A stretch of DNA of 5,670 nucleotides, from contig JAJFBO010000082.1 in assembly GCA_020697025.1 (NCBI GenBank), positions 1 through 5,670 on the forward strand, written 5' to 3'. The stretch is from Burkholderiales bacterium (GTDB lineage Bacteria > Pseudomonadota > Gammaproteobacteria > Burkholderiales > UBA11063). Below, piece by piece: positions 471-5,670 of this stretch. The notes below the pieces were generated by a model that was not told the origin of the DNA, searched no databases, and was given only the letters and a program-made list of their open reading frames with translations. The translations under genes and the position numbers were made by a program. Each line of letters starts with the position of its first letter. Positions within the stretch are counted from its first letter, which is position 1.

Positions 471-1181
471 CTAGCGTTTTGATTGAAGAAAGTTACGTAA
501 AGCTTTTGAATATTTTACGGAATCAATAGGACCATATACCTGGGTATGATGATTTACAGCTTTATTGTCAAATACCTGATACTGACTTACTACTGCACCC
601 GTTTTAGACTCCAGCGCACCAAAAATCACCCGTTTAATCCGGCTGTTAATAATTGCCCCACTGCACATTAAGCACGGCTCAATCGTTACATACAAATCAC
701 ATCCAGATAAATAAGCACTATTTAAATACCTTGATGCATTAGTTATCGCACATATCTCAGCATGCATACCAGGCAAATTGGTTGTTTTGCTAAAATTATA
801 TCCGCAGCCAATTACCTTTTCATCTTTAACTATAACAACACCTACCGGAATTTCATTTTGTTTGCCTGCAAGCTCTGCCTGCTCATATGCCAAATCAAGA
901 TACCGTTTTATACTAGTTGTTTTAAGAGGTGCATAACAAGGTAATATTTTCTTATATAACTGCCTGAGGTGCTTTTCCCGGGCTATATCCAGGCTATTTA
1001 ATGGTAAATTAGATACTATACAATATAAATCATATAGTACTTTATAACTACTTGAAGGATATATATCGCGAAGCCAGGCAAATACTTTTAAATAATCATA
1101 TTGCATTAGATCACTTAGCGATTCAATAGTGAAATCTTTTAATTTTTCCTGCAAATAAAACGGTATATTTTGTTTAATCAA
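471..1181 (-). CDS. tadA: tRNA adenosine(34) deaminase TadA with an N-terminal TfoX_C-like domain
   Basis: This 236-residue protein should deaminate A34 of tRNA-Arg(ACG) to inosine in the cytoplasm, letting it read CGU, CGC and CGA. The deaminase domain covers about residues 88-234. It has the HAE zinc/proton-shuttle motif (H140, A141, E142) and PCLMC (C170, C173 as the other zinc ligands), followed by the TadA-typical RVIFGA and SKTGAV segments. Standard bacterial TadA is about 150-170 residues. Here about 80 extra residues at the front resemble the helical C-terminal domain of TfoX/Sxy (pattern around residues 18-75: SLSDL, FAWLRDIYP, YKVLYDLYCIVSNLPLNSL). The start is TTG at 1181, directly preceded by an in-frame TAA and by TAGG six bases upstream. 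The next in-frame ATG, codon 26, would cut into the extra domain. The gene begins 7 bases after the carbonic-anhydrase stop, so it is probably cotranscribed and perhaps translationally coupled. TadA identity is firm; the TfoX_C call rests on remembered family patterns. Confidence 0.93.
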   Translation of the reverse strand: MIKQNIPFYLQEKLKDFTIESLSDLMQYDYLKVFAWLRDIYPSSSYKVLYDLYCIVSNLPLNSLDIAREKHLRQLYKKILPCYAPLKTTSIKRYLDLAYEQAELAGKQNEIPVGVVIVKDEKVIGCGYNFSKTTNLPGMHAEICAITNASRYLNSAYLSGCDLYVTIEPCLMCSGAIINSRIKRVIFGALESKTGAVVSQYQVFDNKAVNHHTQVYGPIDSVKYSKALRNFLQSKR

Positions 1182-1188
1182 TTAGAAC

Positions 1189-1731
1189 CTACGGGTTATA
1201 ACTAGCGACTAAATGTCCATTTTTAACCCGGACATAATGTTCTGCCGAATATTGAATAAACTGTATCTCTTCTGCAGTTAATGGACGAATTTTTTTTAAC
1301 GGGTTACCAAAATATAGATAACCAGACTCAAGACGTTTATTTGACGGGACGAGACTCCCGGCACCAATTAGTATATTTGGTTCAATAATACAATTATCTA
1401 ATAACGTTGAACCCATTCCAACTAATACATTATCCATAACAGTACAAGCATGTAAACAGCAATTATGTCCAACTGTTACATTATTACCAATAGTTAAGGG
1501 AGATTCCCGGGAAATACCCGGACTATAATGCGTTACATGTAGCATAGTTAAATCCTGAATATTGGTATTGTCGCCAATCTCGATACTGCTAACGTCACCA
1601 CGAATTACACTATTACACCAAATAGAAGTATCTTTGCCTATTTTTACCCGGCCAATTACTACACTGCTTGTATCAATATAACAATTTTCACCAATTTGAG
1701 GAGTAAACCCCTGATAACTTCGCACTTGCAT
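1189..1731 (-). CDS. yrdA: Gamma-carbonic anhydrase-like left-handed beta-helix protein (YrdA family)
   Basis: This 180-residue cytoplasmic protein has the hexapeptide-repeat pattern of a left-handed beta-helix, expected to form a trimer with zinc at the subunit interfaces. The three zinc-ligand histidines of the gamma class are visible as H65 (MLHVTH), H89 (VGHN) and H94 (CLHAC). R44 and D46 (IRGD) and Q59-D60 (NIQD) match conserved active-site or interface positions. The C-terminal part (NKRLESGYLYFGNP, RPLTAEE, YSAEHYV) closely follows E. coli YrdA, and the length fits. Many YrdA-type proteins show little or no measured carbonic anhydrase activity, so CO2 hydration is likely but not certain. 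I chose the ATG at 1731 because AAGGG (1742-1746) sits 10 bases upstream and family homology begins at MQVRSYQ. A 20-codon extension to 1791 would overlap the preceding gene and has no family match. Five bases separate it from the fusion gene. Confidence 0.9.
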   Translation of the reverse strand: MQVRSYQGFTPQIGENCYIDTSSVVIGRVKIGKDTSIWCNSVIRGDVSSIEIGDNTNIQDLTMLHVTHYSPGISRESPLTIGNNVTVGHNCCLHACTVMDNVLVGMGSTLLDNCIIEPNILIGAGSLVPSNKRLESGYLYFGNPLKKIRPLTAEEIQFIQYSAEHYVRVKNGHLVASYNP

Positions 1732-1736
1732 AATAT

Positions 1737-4700
1737 TTATACCCTTGTTAATAGCGCAGCAGCAGAAGTAAACCCACCGCCAAAAGCACATAATGCTATT
1801 ATATTCCCGGAATTTTGTTTAAGTAATGTTTCGCTCAAAGCAATAGGAATAGTGCAGGAAGAGGTATTAGCATAATGTTCAATGTTACTATATACCGCGC
1901 CTTCAGGAATTCCTAAATGACTTCCAACTGCATTTAAAATACGTTGATTTGCCTGATGCGGTACTACTAAATCTAACTGTTCTAAGTTTACCCCGCCTTG
2001 GGTACAACATTTACGTAAAACCCAAGCCATATTTTTAACTGCTAATGTAAATAATTTTTTACCTTGCATTTGTATCCCGCCTGAAATATCAGTCGGAATA
2101 TTTAAAACACTACCATCTTCAGCGATAGCTGATATAAATACTTCATCCAAAGTTGCATCCGCTTTATCCAAATGATTATTTCCGTATAAGATTGTAGCAC
2201 TTGCTGCATCAGCAAATAAAAAAGCAGTTTCAAAATCCGTATTTTTTGTTCGCACAGACATATTTTCAGCAGTAATAACCAGTACCCGGGCATCAGGCCT
2301 GGTTTGCAAATAATCTTTTGCATTTTGCAAGGCATAGATATACCCGCTGCAAGCAGCATTAATATCATATCCTGCAATTCTTTGTTCACCGTAACTTGCA
2401 TAAAGTTTTTGCATAATTAAACATGCCATTGATGGCGATTGATATTTTTCCGGAGTTGTTGTTGCACAAATAATCAGGTCAATGTCACCAAGTGTAATAT
2501 TTTTTTCTTCGAAAATCTTTTTAACTGCTTCAACTGCTATATCTATAACAGACTCATTTTCTGCTAGGTGGAAGCGTTGTTTTATTCCCGTTCGCCTAAC
2601 AATATCTTCTGTTGTATAGTCAGGAAAATTAAGTAAAATTTCATTATTTTCAACTAAGCGTGAGCCAGTTTTAAAAGTTGGATTAGATAAACCAACTTTA
2701 TGTACTCCAACTGAAACTTCTGATTTTACTGTATTTATCGTTACCTTACGTTTTAAAGTCGGAGTTTTTTTAGTATATTGTTTTGCTCTTGATATCCCTT
2801 GTGGCAGCCTAATTTTTAGGAGAGGTGCGCCAACTACAGCACGTTCTGATTCGCTAACATATATTTCTTCAACAATCCCGGCACAAGGAGATAATATTTC
2901 TCCAGCAGATTTACTTGCCTCAATATCTACTAAAACATCACTATTTTTTATCTGCGAACCAATACCTACATATAATTTATTAACTAAAACGCTTTCATCT
3001 GATGGACTGGCCCCTATAACATTAACCATATATACATCTTCTTCATGGGCGGCTTCCTCTTCCCATATTAAAGATAAATCCAGTATTTGTGCTGCAGCTG
3101 CCAATATTTTTTCATATGAAGGTAATACTTCTAATTGGTTAGCAAAATTACATGGCGTATACGTATCCGGCCTGGTTATTCTACGTACTTTAAAAGGTAC
3201 AGTTATATATTCAGCAACTGCAGCAATTATTTCACCGCCCAGGCCACAAGTATGATTATCTTCATGGGTTACAATAAGATTTCTGGTTTTTTGCACAGAT
3301 ATTAAAATAGTGTCCAAATCATATGGTTTTATGGTTCGTAAATCAATAATTTCTGACTCAATTCCCACTTTATCTAAAGTATCTGCTGCCTGAATACATA
3401 ATTCAACAGTATTCCCCCAGCCTACTAAAGTAATATCGCCTCCGGAGCGGACAATCCTGGCCCGGCCGATCGGTACTAAATGCCTGTTAATATCTCTTGA
3501 AGTTGTATCGCTAATTGATGCATTATTCAGAAGCTTTTTAGGGTATAAGAAAATACTTGGGCGACCTGACCTGAAGGCAGCATTTAGCATTCCAGCAGCA
3601 TCTGCTGCATTTGATGGCACATACACATCTAGCCCGGGTATATGGGCATATGTTGCTTCATTAGTTTGTGAATGAAATGGACCTAATCCGGGACGATAAG
3701 CGCCACTTGCAGCGAAAACTATTACAGGAGCCTGCCAGGCCCCGGCAGTGCGCCAGTACATAGTAGCTAATTCACTAAATATTTGATTATATGCAATTGG
3801 CATAAAATCAGCAAATTGTATAAAAGCAACCGGTAATTTACCAGCAAGAGCCATACCACAAGCCAGTCCCACAATTGTAGACTCGCTAAGAGCGCTATTT
3901 TTTACTCGTGAACCATATTTAGTAGATAATCCACGGGTAATGCCAAATACATCGCCTTTACCATCTTCAATATCTTCACCCAATAAACATACATTTGGAT
4001 TACTTGCTAAATGATAATCAAATACTGCCCGCATTGCTTCCAACATTGTATAACGTTGATCTGCAATAGTAAAATCACCTCGGTATTCAGAAGCATCGGG
4101 CATCAATTCCCTGATTAAGGGTCTTTCAGCATCAAATATAGCGGCAGGTTCGCCATCTAGTCTGGCTAAATCAACTGCCCGACGGACAAATTTAATAGAT
4201 TCATTTTTTGCTTTTTCAATTACATCAGCATTAAAACCGTTTTTTTGTAAAAAGATATATGCAGTATTTAATGGATCATTTTGGTCAAACTTTGTAAATT
4301 CGTCACTGCTTCGGTAAAGTTTATGATCATCAGCGTTAGAGTGATTATCTAATCTATCAACATTAAAAACAATAATGTGGGATTTTCTATCATCGCGTAT
4401 AGTCTGTACAATTTTTTCTAAGTCAGAGGTTTGATCGAATGGATGAGTTCCATCCAGATAAGTAATAGGTATATCATAAAATAATTTAGCGTTTTTATTC
4501 TTTGGCAATGAAAAAAAAGTCTTCTCATTAGTTCTAGTCGAAATAGCCAGCTCATTATTATGAATAAAAAATAATATGGGTAGATGTGACCGGCATGCCT
4601 CAGCAATTGCTTCTAATACTTCGCCTTGTTGGGAAGTTCCATCGCCAATAGCACAATATACTATTGGCTTGTCCGGGCTATCTTTAATTACATGAGCAAT

Positions 4701-5072
4701 TCCAGCAGCCTGTAAAGCATTATTACCTACTGGTCCAACAATACTTAAGATATTTAATTCGGGAGCGCTCATGTGTGAGACCATTTGACGTCCGTGAGAA
4801 TGCGATTTTTCTTTCGCTAGTGCGCTGTAAAAAAACATTTCATTTGAAACTCCTCGAGCAAGCATAAGCGCTTTATCTCTGTAATGGCAATGCAAATAAT
4901 CTGTTTTTAATAAATAGGGAGCAAGTATTACACTTCCTTCATGGCCTTTACTTGAGGCTAAAAAATTTGCCTCACCACTATTTACCAGTTCAGACTCAAC
5001 TATATCTGATTCCCGGGAAGCTACCATATATCTGTAAAGTTCAAGATACTTATCCATATTCAAGGTTTTCAT
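1737..5072 (-). CDS. Four-module fusion: 2-oxoacid dehydrogenase E1-alpha/E1-beta, lipoyl domain, beta-ketoacyl-ACP synthase III
   Basis: This 1111-residue soluble protein holds four modules in one frame. Residues about 5-300 are E1-alpha-like: YRD (64-66), HGRQM (93-97) and the thiamine-diphosphate motif GDG (143-145) to NN (172-173). Residues about 335-665 are E1-beta: GED with the cofactor-activating Glu366, LSES (395-398), FADF, HSQT (467-470) and DLRTIKP. After an acidic linker, about 680-758 is a lipoyl domain with K721 in EASKS. About 786-1111 is a full FabH-like ketosynthase with C908, H1039 and N1069, spaced as in E. coli FabH (112/244/274), ending FGGGF. I infer decarboxylation of a 2-oxoacid, acyl transfer to the lipoyl arm, then condensation with malonyl-ACP to begin a fatty acid or similar chain. 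No E2 acyltransferase or E3 domain is present, so E3 would act in trans. The start at 5072 has AAAGGA 9 bases upstream; an ATG five codons later has none. The substrate (pyruvate, branched-chain or other) cannot be read. Domain identity is firm; the joint reaction is inference. Confidence 0.93.
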   Translation of the reverse strand: MKTLNMDKYLELYRYMVASRESDIVESELVNSGEANFLASSKGHEGSVILAPYLLKTDYLHCHYRDKALMLARGVSNEMFFYSALAKEKSHSHGRQMVSHMSAPELNILSIVGPVGNNALQAAGIAHVIKDSPDKPIVYCAIGDGTSQQGEVLEAIAEACRSHLPILFFIHNNELAISTRTNEKTFFSLPKNKNAKLFYDIPITYLDGTHPFDQTSDLEKIVQTIRDDRKSHIIVFNVDRLDNHSNADDHKLYRSSDEFTKFDQNDPLNTAYIFLQKNGFNADVIEKAKNESIKFVRRAVDLARLDGEPAAIFDAERPLIRELMPDASEYRGDFTIADQRYTMLEAMRAVFDYHLASNPNVCLLGEDIEDGKGDVFGITRGLSTKYGSRVKNSALSESTIVGLACGMALAGKLPVAFIQFADFMPIAYNQIFSELATMYWRTAGAWQAPVIVFAASGAYRPGLGPFHSQTNEATYAHIPGLDVYVPSNAADAAGMLNAAFRSGRPSIFLYPKKLLNNASISDTTSRDINRHLVPIGRARIVRSGGDITLVGWGNTVELCIQAADTLDKVGIESEIIDLRTIKPYDLDTILISVQKTRNLIVTHEDNHTCGLGGEIIAAVAEYITVPFKVRRITRPDTYTPCNFANQLEVLPSYEKILAAAAQILDLSLIWEEEAAHEEDVYMVNVIGASPSDESVLVNKLYVGIGSQIKNSDVLVDIEASKSAGEILSPCAGIVEEIYVSESERAVVGAPLLKIRLPQGISRAKQYTKKTPTLKRKVTINTVKSEVSVGVHKVGLSNPTFKTGSRLVENNEILLNFPDYTTEDIVRRTGIKQRFHLAENESVIDIAVEAVKKIFEEKNITLGDIDLIICATTTPEKYQSPSMACLIMQKLYASYGEQRIAGYDINAACSGYIYALQNAKDYLQTRPDARVLVITAENMSVRTKNTDFETAFLFADAASATILYGNNHLDKADATLDEVFISAIAEDGSVLNIPTDISGGIQMQGKKLFTLAVKNMAWVLRKCCTQGGVNLEQLDLVVPHQANQRILNAVGSHLGIPEGAVYSNIEHYANTSSCTIPIALSETLLKQNSGNIIALCAFGGGFTSAAALLTRV

Positions 5073-5309: not shown

Positions 5310-5670
5310 ATGCAAAACACAAACTTTAAACAAAAAGGTTTTACGTTAATTGAAATTATGGTTGTCCTGGTAATATTGGGCGTTATGGCCGCTTTGGTTG
5401 TACCCCGGGTGCTTGGCCGGGCTGATGATGCCCGGAAGGTAGCAGCAAAAAGTGATATAGCTTCCCTTATGAATGCATTAAAATTGTACAATCTGGATAA
5501 CGTACGTTATCCTACAAATGCACAAGGCTTAGAAGCTCTTAGTCAAAAGCCCAGTGTAGCGCCAATTCCCAATAACTATAAAGATGGCGGCTATCTTGAT
5601 AAACTGCCTATTGATCCATGGGGTTCTCCATATCAATACCAAAACCCTGGTAAACATGGTGAAGTAGATG
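5310..5670 (+). CDS. gspG: Type II secretion major pseudopilin GspG (3' end outside the window)
   Basis: The 120 codons present encode the major pseudopilin of the type II secretion system, which polymerises in the inner membrane and periplasm into the pseudopilus. A 10-residue leader ending K9-G10 is followed by F11 and the type IV prepilin signature GFTLIEIMVVLVILG. GspO would cut after G10 and methylate F11; E15 is the conserved Glu at mature +5. The hydrophobic helix runs to about residue 31, followed by the GspG-typical PRVLGRADDA, the helical SDIASLMNALKLYNLDN, RYPTNAQGLEAL and GYLDKLPIDPWGSPYQY segments. GspG is usually about 140-150 residues, so only the last part, with the calcium-site region, is missing. 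Ribosome binding site AAAGGAGT (5293-5300) lies 9 bases before the ATG. The gene diverges from the fusion operon; other gsp genes may follow beyond the edge. Confidence 0.95.
   Translation, partial: MQNTNFKQKGFTLIEIMVVLVILGVMAALVVPRVLGRADDARKVAAKSDIASLMNALKLYNLDNVRYPTNAQGLEALSQKPSVAPIPNNYKDGGYLDKLPIDPWGSPYQYQNPGKHGEVD

Follow-up and report, generated by a model that had tools for sequence, protein, structure and literature searches.

In 2-oxoacid dehydrogenases the final step is the formation of acyl-coenzyme A (acyl-CoA) by an E2 acyltransferase, and ketosynthases of the KAS III family are primed by acyl-CoA or by acyl-acyl carrier protein (acyl-ACP). The gene described here lies in a 5,670-nucleotide stretch of DNA (the window; contig JAJFBO010000082.1 of the Burkholderiales bacterium assembly GCA_020697025.1) and joins the alpha and beta parts of a 2-oxoacid dehydrogenase E1, a lipoyl domain and a KAS III ketosynthase (KS) in a single chain of 1111 amino acids. 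The fusion is a real, conserved architecture that is undescribed in the literature searched; searches aimed at it found no paper on the architecture, which is weak evidence as open-licence papers only were covered. The gene is best read, with a probability of roughly 0.6, as encoding a 2-oxoacid dehydrogenase whose E2 acyltransferase gave way to a ketosynthase; such an enzyme would convert a 2-oxoacid directly to the 3-oxoacyl-ACP that starts a chain, with no acyl-CoA step.

Comparison with Described Systems

The complexes of the branched-chain 2-oxoacid dehydrogenase (BCKDH) and pyruvate dehydrogenase (PDH) type consist of an E1 (alpha2 beta2), an E2 and a dihydrolipoyl dehydrogenase (E3). 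The fusion has E1-alpha, E1-beta, the thiamine diphosphate (ThDP) motif, both reductive-acylation histidines and the lipoyl domain in common with them, whereas its E1-alpha, E1-beta and lipoyl parts form one chain, the PF00198 acyltransferase and the E3-binding domain are both unmatched in the Pfam scan, and its scores lie far below the cut-offs of the PDH E1 models. With FabH it shares the KAS III fold, the Cys-His-Asn triad and Arg249 (FabH numbering), and it passes the NCBIfam cut-off for beta-ketoacyl-ACP synthase 3, but the Thr28/Trp32/Arg151 clamp and Lys214 are lost, Phe87 is replaced by Ser or Thr, the domain is tethered behind a lipoyl domain, and the score falls below the TIGR00747 cut-off. 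The Gram-positive relay, in which BCKDH makes acyl-CoA for FabH according to the accessible portion of PMC5857589, has the same predicted input and output as the fusion, with the difference that free acyl-CoA passes between separate enzymes. The nearest functional precedent, compared by description only, is Photorhabdus BkdABC, reported in available parts of two papers (PMC4578411, PMC4901931) to be a source of iso-fatty acids and of a 5-methyl-3-oxohexanoyl thioester, a branched 3-oxoacyl starter. As described there, BkdABC is a three-gene operon in which BkdB includes an ACP domain dependent on a phosphopantetheinyl transferase, whereas no ACP domain was matched in the fusion protein; excerpts elsewhere describe BkdABC as a branched-chain dehydrogenase (PMC8248439, PMC3838401).

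Architecture and Conservation of the Fusion

The gene is a single unbroken frame of 1111 codons plus TAA on the minus strand (window 1737-5072), the plus strand of the same span being full of stops (Table 1). Six Pfam domains lie above cut-off: E1_dh (residues 14-308, 1e-31), Transket_pyr (342-516, 4.5e-26), Transketolase_C (536-648, 2.8e-31), Biotin_lipoyl (PF00364, 694-754, 7.1e-8, 32.6 bits against a cut-off of 22.1), ACP_syn_III (902-965, 8.8e-17) and ACP_syn_III_C (1024-1108, 5.2e-24). No carrier-protein family is among the nine Pfam matches of the protein; a separate ACP elsewhere in the host is possible. The best solved relative of the E1-alpha module is the Thermus thermophilus 2-oxoacid dehydrogenase alpha chain (1um9_A), and a comparison with VIA-align covered mainly E1-beta and the KS, with E1-alpha and the lipoyl fold barely included. 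Relatives without the KS have a match to the query ending at residues 775 and 777, at the linker.

The first-pass annotation of this DNA, made from the sequence alone, had placed E1-alpha, E1-beta, lipoyl and KAS III parts in one 1111-codon frame at 1737-5072, which is exact; it gave no strand. The ThDP motifs, lipoyl-lysine motif and intact KAS III triad that it read there likewise hold at the level of single codons (C908, H1039, N1069, K721, G143, G145, N173, H244, E397 and H467 were checked), and the residues are kept in 158-159 of 159 members. This alignment comprises full-length members only (the query, 118 database proteins and 40 from loci, overlaps included) and shrinks to 131 once copies more than 97% identical are removed. 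The domain-architecture search that the annotation proposed finds all six domains in 119 of the 120 best database matches, the query's own entry P0001 included, the exception being a partial record of 856 amino acids (P0111). Source names in the family vary, with '2-oxoisovalerate dehydrogenase E1 component', 'transketolase' and 'beta-ketoacyl-ACP synthase 3' all in use.

Within the genus of the window, 17 of 23 genomes (the host included) hold the full-length single frame and three hold parts or a split frame (G001, G020, G021); the fusion was not found in the remaining three, which are 52-81% complete (G008, G013, G019). This conservation excludes chance, and contamination or an assembly accident is ruled out by full-length copies in independent genomes, one of them a single contig. 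No full-length match was found among the 77 other genomes searched from the order. Among 369 genomes drawn from the class (the host included), G214 carries the gene at full length, the match in G137 spans residues 232-1109 next to a contig end, and that in G418 lacks the KS. A genome-contig search gave 30 loci, 28 of which match most of the query length, with L045 matching from residue 225 only, at a contig end. Their hosts are Burkholderiales/Neisseriaceae metagenome-assembled genomes, Fangia, Cysteiniphilum, Facilibium, Caedibacter, 'Thiotrichales' and planctomycetes; the locus set overlaps the genus set (L024, L026 and L027 are G016, G004 and G003). In the order of the planctomycete G471 the fusion occurs in 9 of 196 genomes, as a single frame in eight and as two overlapping frames in G642. 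Two further records with the six domains, each labeled as partial, carry the names Spirochaetota (P0310) and Kiritimatiellales (P0327).

Table 1. Features of the fusion gene in the window (residue numbers refer to the 1111-residue protein; fractions give conservation among aligned members or standalone FabHs)
Feature	Window position	Strand	Basis or remark
Whole gene, 1111-aa E1-alpha/E1-beta/lipoyl/KAS III fusion	1737..5072	-	start codon 5070-5072, stop 1737-1739
E1-alpha module, residues 1-330	4083..5072	-	Pfam E1_dh 14-308
ThDP motif GDG...N, residues 143-173	4554..4646	-	G143, D144, G145, N173 each 159/159
His244, presumed counterpart of human BCKDH His291-alpha	4341..4343	-	alignment; 159/159
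E1-beta module, residues 338-666	3075..4061	-	
His467, presumed counterpart of human BCKDH His146-beta'	3672..3674	-	alignment; 158/159
Lipoyl domain, residues 681-757	2802..3032	-	Pfam PF00364 694-754; strands in predicted structure
Lys721, predicted lipoyl attachment site	2910..2912	-	Glu at -3, Gly at +11; K721, E718, G732 each 159/159
Probably flexible linker ahead of ketosynthase, residues 776-790	2703..2747	-	predicted local distance difference test (pLDDT) <50 at 779-787
KAS III module, residues 791-1111	1740..2702	-	
Cys908, nucleophile	2349..2351	-	159/159
His1039, triad	1956..1958	-	159/159
Asn1069, triad	1866..1868	-	159/159
Asp823 where E. coli FabH has Trp32 (CoA adenine stack lost)	2604..2606	-	D 159/159; W 22/22 standalone FabHs
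Phe947 where FabH has Arg151 (other side of adenine stack)	2232..2234	-	F 150/159, R 0/159; R 22/22 standalone
Ser879 where FabH has Phe87 (acyl pocket gate)	2436..2438	-	S/T 155/159; F 19/22 standalone

Catalytic Residues and the Ketosynthase Active Site

The E1 part has the domains and residues of a BCKDH/PDH-type E1, with E1_dh, Transket_pyr and Transketolase_C above cut-off, the GDG/N thiamine motif, H244 and E397 kept in all 159 members and H467 in 158. H244 and H467 we take to match human BCKDH His291-alpha and His146-beta' exactly in residue number. Both align with human BCKDH histidines, for which a role in reductive acylation is given in the title of structure entry 1ols. Curated NCBIfam cut-offs for PDH E1 are missed by a wide margin (TIGR03181, 151 against 411; PRK11892, 202 against 454). 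A lipoyl lysine is recognized by Glu at -3 and Gly at +11, and in the fusion the PF00364 match above cut-off contains E718-x-x-K721 and G732, invariant in the alignment, making Lys721 the predicted site of lipoylation. A biotin carrier is unlikely because the lysine lies between S/T/D and S/A rather than next to Met, and E2 lipoyl models match this part of the protein.

The KS domains of the 159 fusions were set against a reference group of 22 standalone FabHs, made up of the E. coli enzyme, that of the host and 20 more from its genus and order. The triad C908-H1039-N1069 is kept throughout. Thr28, Trp32 and Arg151 of FabH contact the CoA adenine, as given in the accessible part of PMC4606726; their counterparts are present in 22 of 22 standalone FabHs and in none of the fusions, with Asp at the Trp32 position in every member and Phe at that of Arg151 in 150. 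Asn247, which lies on the pantetheine side, and Arg249 are kept in all 159 and Arg36 in 146, so most of the tunnel that would take a pantetheine-like arm is retained with the CoA grip gone. The position of Phe87 is Ser or Thr in 155 fusions. Phe87 of E. coli FabH goes with acetyl-CoA and Thr or a small residue there with longer acyl primers, according to the available text of PMC3734052, and the change leans away from a primer that is acetyl only. In keeping with its fold and triad the domain scores as a KAS III (PRK09352, 252.4 against a cut-off of 249), whereas the cut-off for FabH proper is missed (TIGR00747, 222.6 against 292.1) and the adenine clamp of FabH proper, which uses acetyl-CoA, is lacking. 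A W42A/R161A double mutant of Mycobacterium tuberculosis FabH is named in the title of a structure entry, and no text on its effect was found in the literature searched.

E2, E3, and Unfused Relatives

Matches to the PF00198 acyltransferase number zero to two in each of the 23 genus genomes. The single-contig genome G017 has two E2s, namely AceF, which is read in two frames, and SucB; AceE and SucA are encoded close by. One or two E2s were counted in each of nine genomes that were reached by way of fusion loci and include one of the same genus (L024/G470). These counts support the view that the genus lacks a third E2 able to serve the E1 of the fusion. The AceF of G017 (L178:6004-7631) is divided into a lipoyl part and a catalytic part by a possible frameshift or a real split. 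E3 (TIGR01350) is above cut-off in 21 of the 23 genus genomes, the host included.

The nearest unfused E1s found are fused E1-alpha/beta genes of 34-38% identity, present in 9 of the 196 genomes of the same planctomycete order. In all nine a gene for a lipoyl plus PF00198 E2, with the motif HxxxNG, follows on the same strand. In a tree of 48 E1 sequences, eight of these nine (L195 was left out) group with the fusions with a support of 1.0, and the fusions form one clade (0.997); the status of the E2-paired E1s as sisters assumes a root among the other E1s. Position and phylogeny suggest that KAS III came to stand behind the lipoyl domain in lieu of the E2 acyltransferase, the event itself being one that we infer.

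Two members lack the KS, a 781-amino acid gene in L119 and a 793-amino acid copy that accompanies a full fusion in L030. Both fall within the fusion clade (supports of 0.993 and 0.919) and thus look like later losses. At L030 the two genes stand in tandem, with the KS-less copy at 4627-7008 followed by a DJ-1/PfpI gene and then the full fusion at 7929-11333. At L119 (7626-12228) the KS-less gene, which agrees in protein length with record P0244 of Piscirickettsia litoralis, precedes SET-domain, WelO5-like and alpha/beta-hydrolase genes.

Split operons resembling BkdABC were sought among 17 unfused E1 matches for which the surroundings were taken (12 from the class search and five from the order search), and there were none. 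Ten of the 17 are separate E1-alpha/E1-beta genes, the next gene being judged by size only, three are fused E1s with no lipoyl or KS match nearby, and four were left unresolved by the script.

Proposed Mechanism and Alternative Explanations

In the proposed mechanism the E1 half, with thiamine diphosphate, would decarboxylate a 2-oxoacid and reductively acylate the lipoyl group on Lys721. The arm would then swing on flexible linkers and deliver the acyl group to Cys908, after which His1039 and Asn1069 would decarboxylate malonyl-ACP for condensation to 3-oxoacyl-ACP. The arm would be re-oxidized with NAD+ by the ordinary E3 of the PDH and 2-oxoglutarate dehydrogenase (OGDH) complexes, giving the net reaction 2-oxoacid + malonyl-ACP + NAD+ -> 3-oxoacyl-ACP + 2 CO2 + NADH. 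The predicted mechanism is well supported by sequence, the basis being the domain order, the catalytic residues, loss of the adenine clamp, the failure to find a dedicated E2 in the genus and the E2-paired sister genes; lipoylation, the direct transfer from lipoyl to Cys, malonyl-ACP as the partner and the use of E3 are the parts that we infer. The lost clamp favors delivery of the acyl group straight to the ketosynthase. The initiation module proposed in the first-pass annotation agrees with the conservation of all modules and catalytic residues, the missing third E2 and the lost clamp, although 'self-contained', as it was called, is too strong because E3, lipoylation and malonyl-ACP must be supplied from outside, the last by the ordinary pathway.

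A bolder reading, slightly more likely than not, is that KAS III replaced the E2 acyltransferase of a 2-oxoacid dehydrogenase in this lineage and that the ketosynthase therefore receives its acyl group from a lipoyl arm swinging on its own chain, and from neither CoA nor ACP. This would be a novel means of initiating fatty-acid or polyketide chains and, to our knowledge, the first lipoyl-primed ketosynthase. If so, a lipoyl arm can feed carbon-carbon bond formation directly, keto-acid supply is coupled to lipid initiation independently of the CoA pool, and a compact module for branched or unusual chains becomes available. A family found in uncultured Burkholderiales, Francisella-like bacteria and planctomycetes would gain a function, and automatic labels, '2-oxoisovalerate dehydrogenase E1 component' among them, would have masked a chemistry common to several phyla.

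Branched or otherwise longer 2-oxoacids are the likeliest substrates, although the certainty of this assignment is low. The E1-alpha part scores 88-99 bits against branched-chain and T. thermophilus chains and at most 67 against PDH chains, whereas for E1-beta the branched-chain and PDH kinds score alike and the nearest NCBIfam models to the E1 are PDH ones, far below cut-off. Matches to ilvC occur in 15 of the 23 genus genomes (14 over cut-off) and to ilvE in 18 (13 over cut-off), the host genome (88% complete) having a partial ilvC only and no ilvE match. No fatty-acid profile of cultured carriers was found in the literature searched.

Several observations weigh against a dehydrogenase that feeds its own ketosynthase. 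Lys214, present in 22 of 22 standalone FabHs, is absent from all 159 fusions, which could also mean weaker docking of ACP. FabH position 28 is aromatic (F/Y/H/W) in 108 of the fusions, making a re-made CoA site possible, and the standalone KAS III proteins P0216 (321 amino acids) and P0217 (324 amino acids) also lack Trp32 and Arg151, so that loss of the clamp is not strictly tied to fusion; these two are possible split forms. The KS-less members in L119 and L030 indicate that the E1-lipoyl part can exist without the KS. Pfam matched no E3-binding domain in the fusion protein, and neither an E2 nor an E3 rises above cut-off in G006 (87% complete) and G018 (74%), although both carry the fusion in full, a gap that may reflect absent sequence or may count against the E3 re-oxidation step.

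The KS-less members and the standalone relatives P0216 and P0217 would suit a fusion that serves co-expression only, with the E1-lipoyl part feeding something else and the KS taking acyl-ACP or acyl-CoA from solution. This is unlikely in view of the nested position of the KS-less copies, the loss of the adenine clamp and the fact that no dedicated E2 was found in the 23 genus genomes and the nine reached through loci. A KAS III located after the lipoyl domain, where the sister genes have an acyltransferase, could instead act as a stand-in E2, transferring the lipoyl-bound acyl group to ACP or CoA as acceptor with no condensation, and KS-type enzymes with acylating activity are reported in the available part of PMC4578411. 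Retention of the condensing-triad His and Asn in 159 of 159 members makes this rather improbable, and CoA is an unlikely acceptor because its clamp is lost. It is very improbable that the KAS III still uses acyl-CoA through a rearranged adenine site, for which the aromatic residue at position 28 would speak, while the E1-lipoyl arm supplies an outside E2: Trp32 and Arg151 are lost in every member, and the genus genomes hold at most two E2s, which are AceF and SucB where identified. The reading as a dehydrogenase whose E2 acyltransferase gave way to a ketosynthase is preferred over these explanations.

Genomic Neighborhood

A canonical fabH gene lies beside plsX in the host genome (G000:C284; TIGR00747, 434.6). 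Ordinary initiation is thus covered, and the fusion is therefore a second entry point; the first-pass annotation, which had it replace the relay of E1/E2/E3 and a separate FabH, is not borne out on this point. The genome context of the matches, a further check proposed there, does contain recurring neighbors, but these differ between lineages. A biosynthetic cluster is accordingly unsupported among the minority of neighbors that were annotated.

Three recurring neighbors were scanned. In nine planctomycete loci (L036, L038-L044, L046) the gene that comes next after the fusion, in the same orientation, belongs to a single protein cluster, with two bacterial microcompartment (BMC) domains in L038, the sole member scanned. 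In the genus, a malic enzyme-phosphotransacetylase gene, so called from one scanned member (L061), stands directly upstream on the same strand in L051, L053, L057, L058 and L061. A gene resembling a Rep_3-type replication initiator, the call again resting on one scanned member (L060), adjoins the fusion on the other strand in L052, L054, L055, L056, L059 and L060.

In the window itself the fusion is followed on the minus strand, after gaps of 5 and 7 bp, by a gamma-carbonic-anhydrase-like gene and a gene for a TadA-like deaminase with an N-terminal extension of ~90 amino acids (window 471-1731). In the close relative L050/L024 the fusion is likewise succeeded by homologues of the two genes (86% and 68% identity), in unchanged order. 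On the plus strand, window 5310-5669 holds a divergent gspG, encoding the major pseudopilin of type II secretion, that is cut by the contig end.

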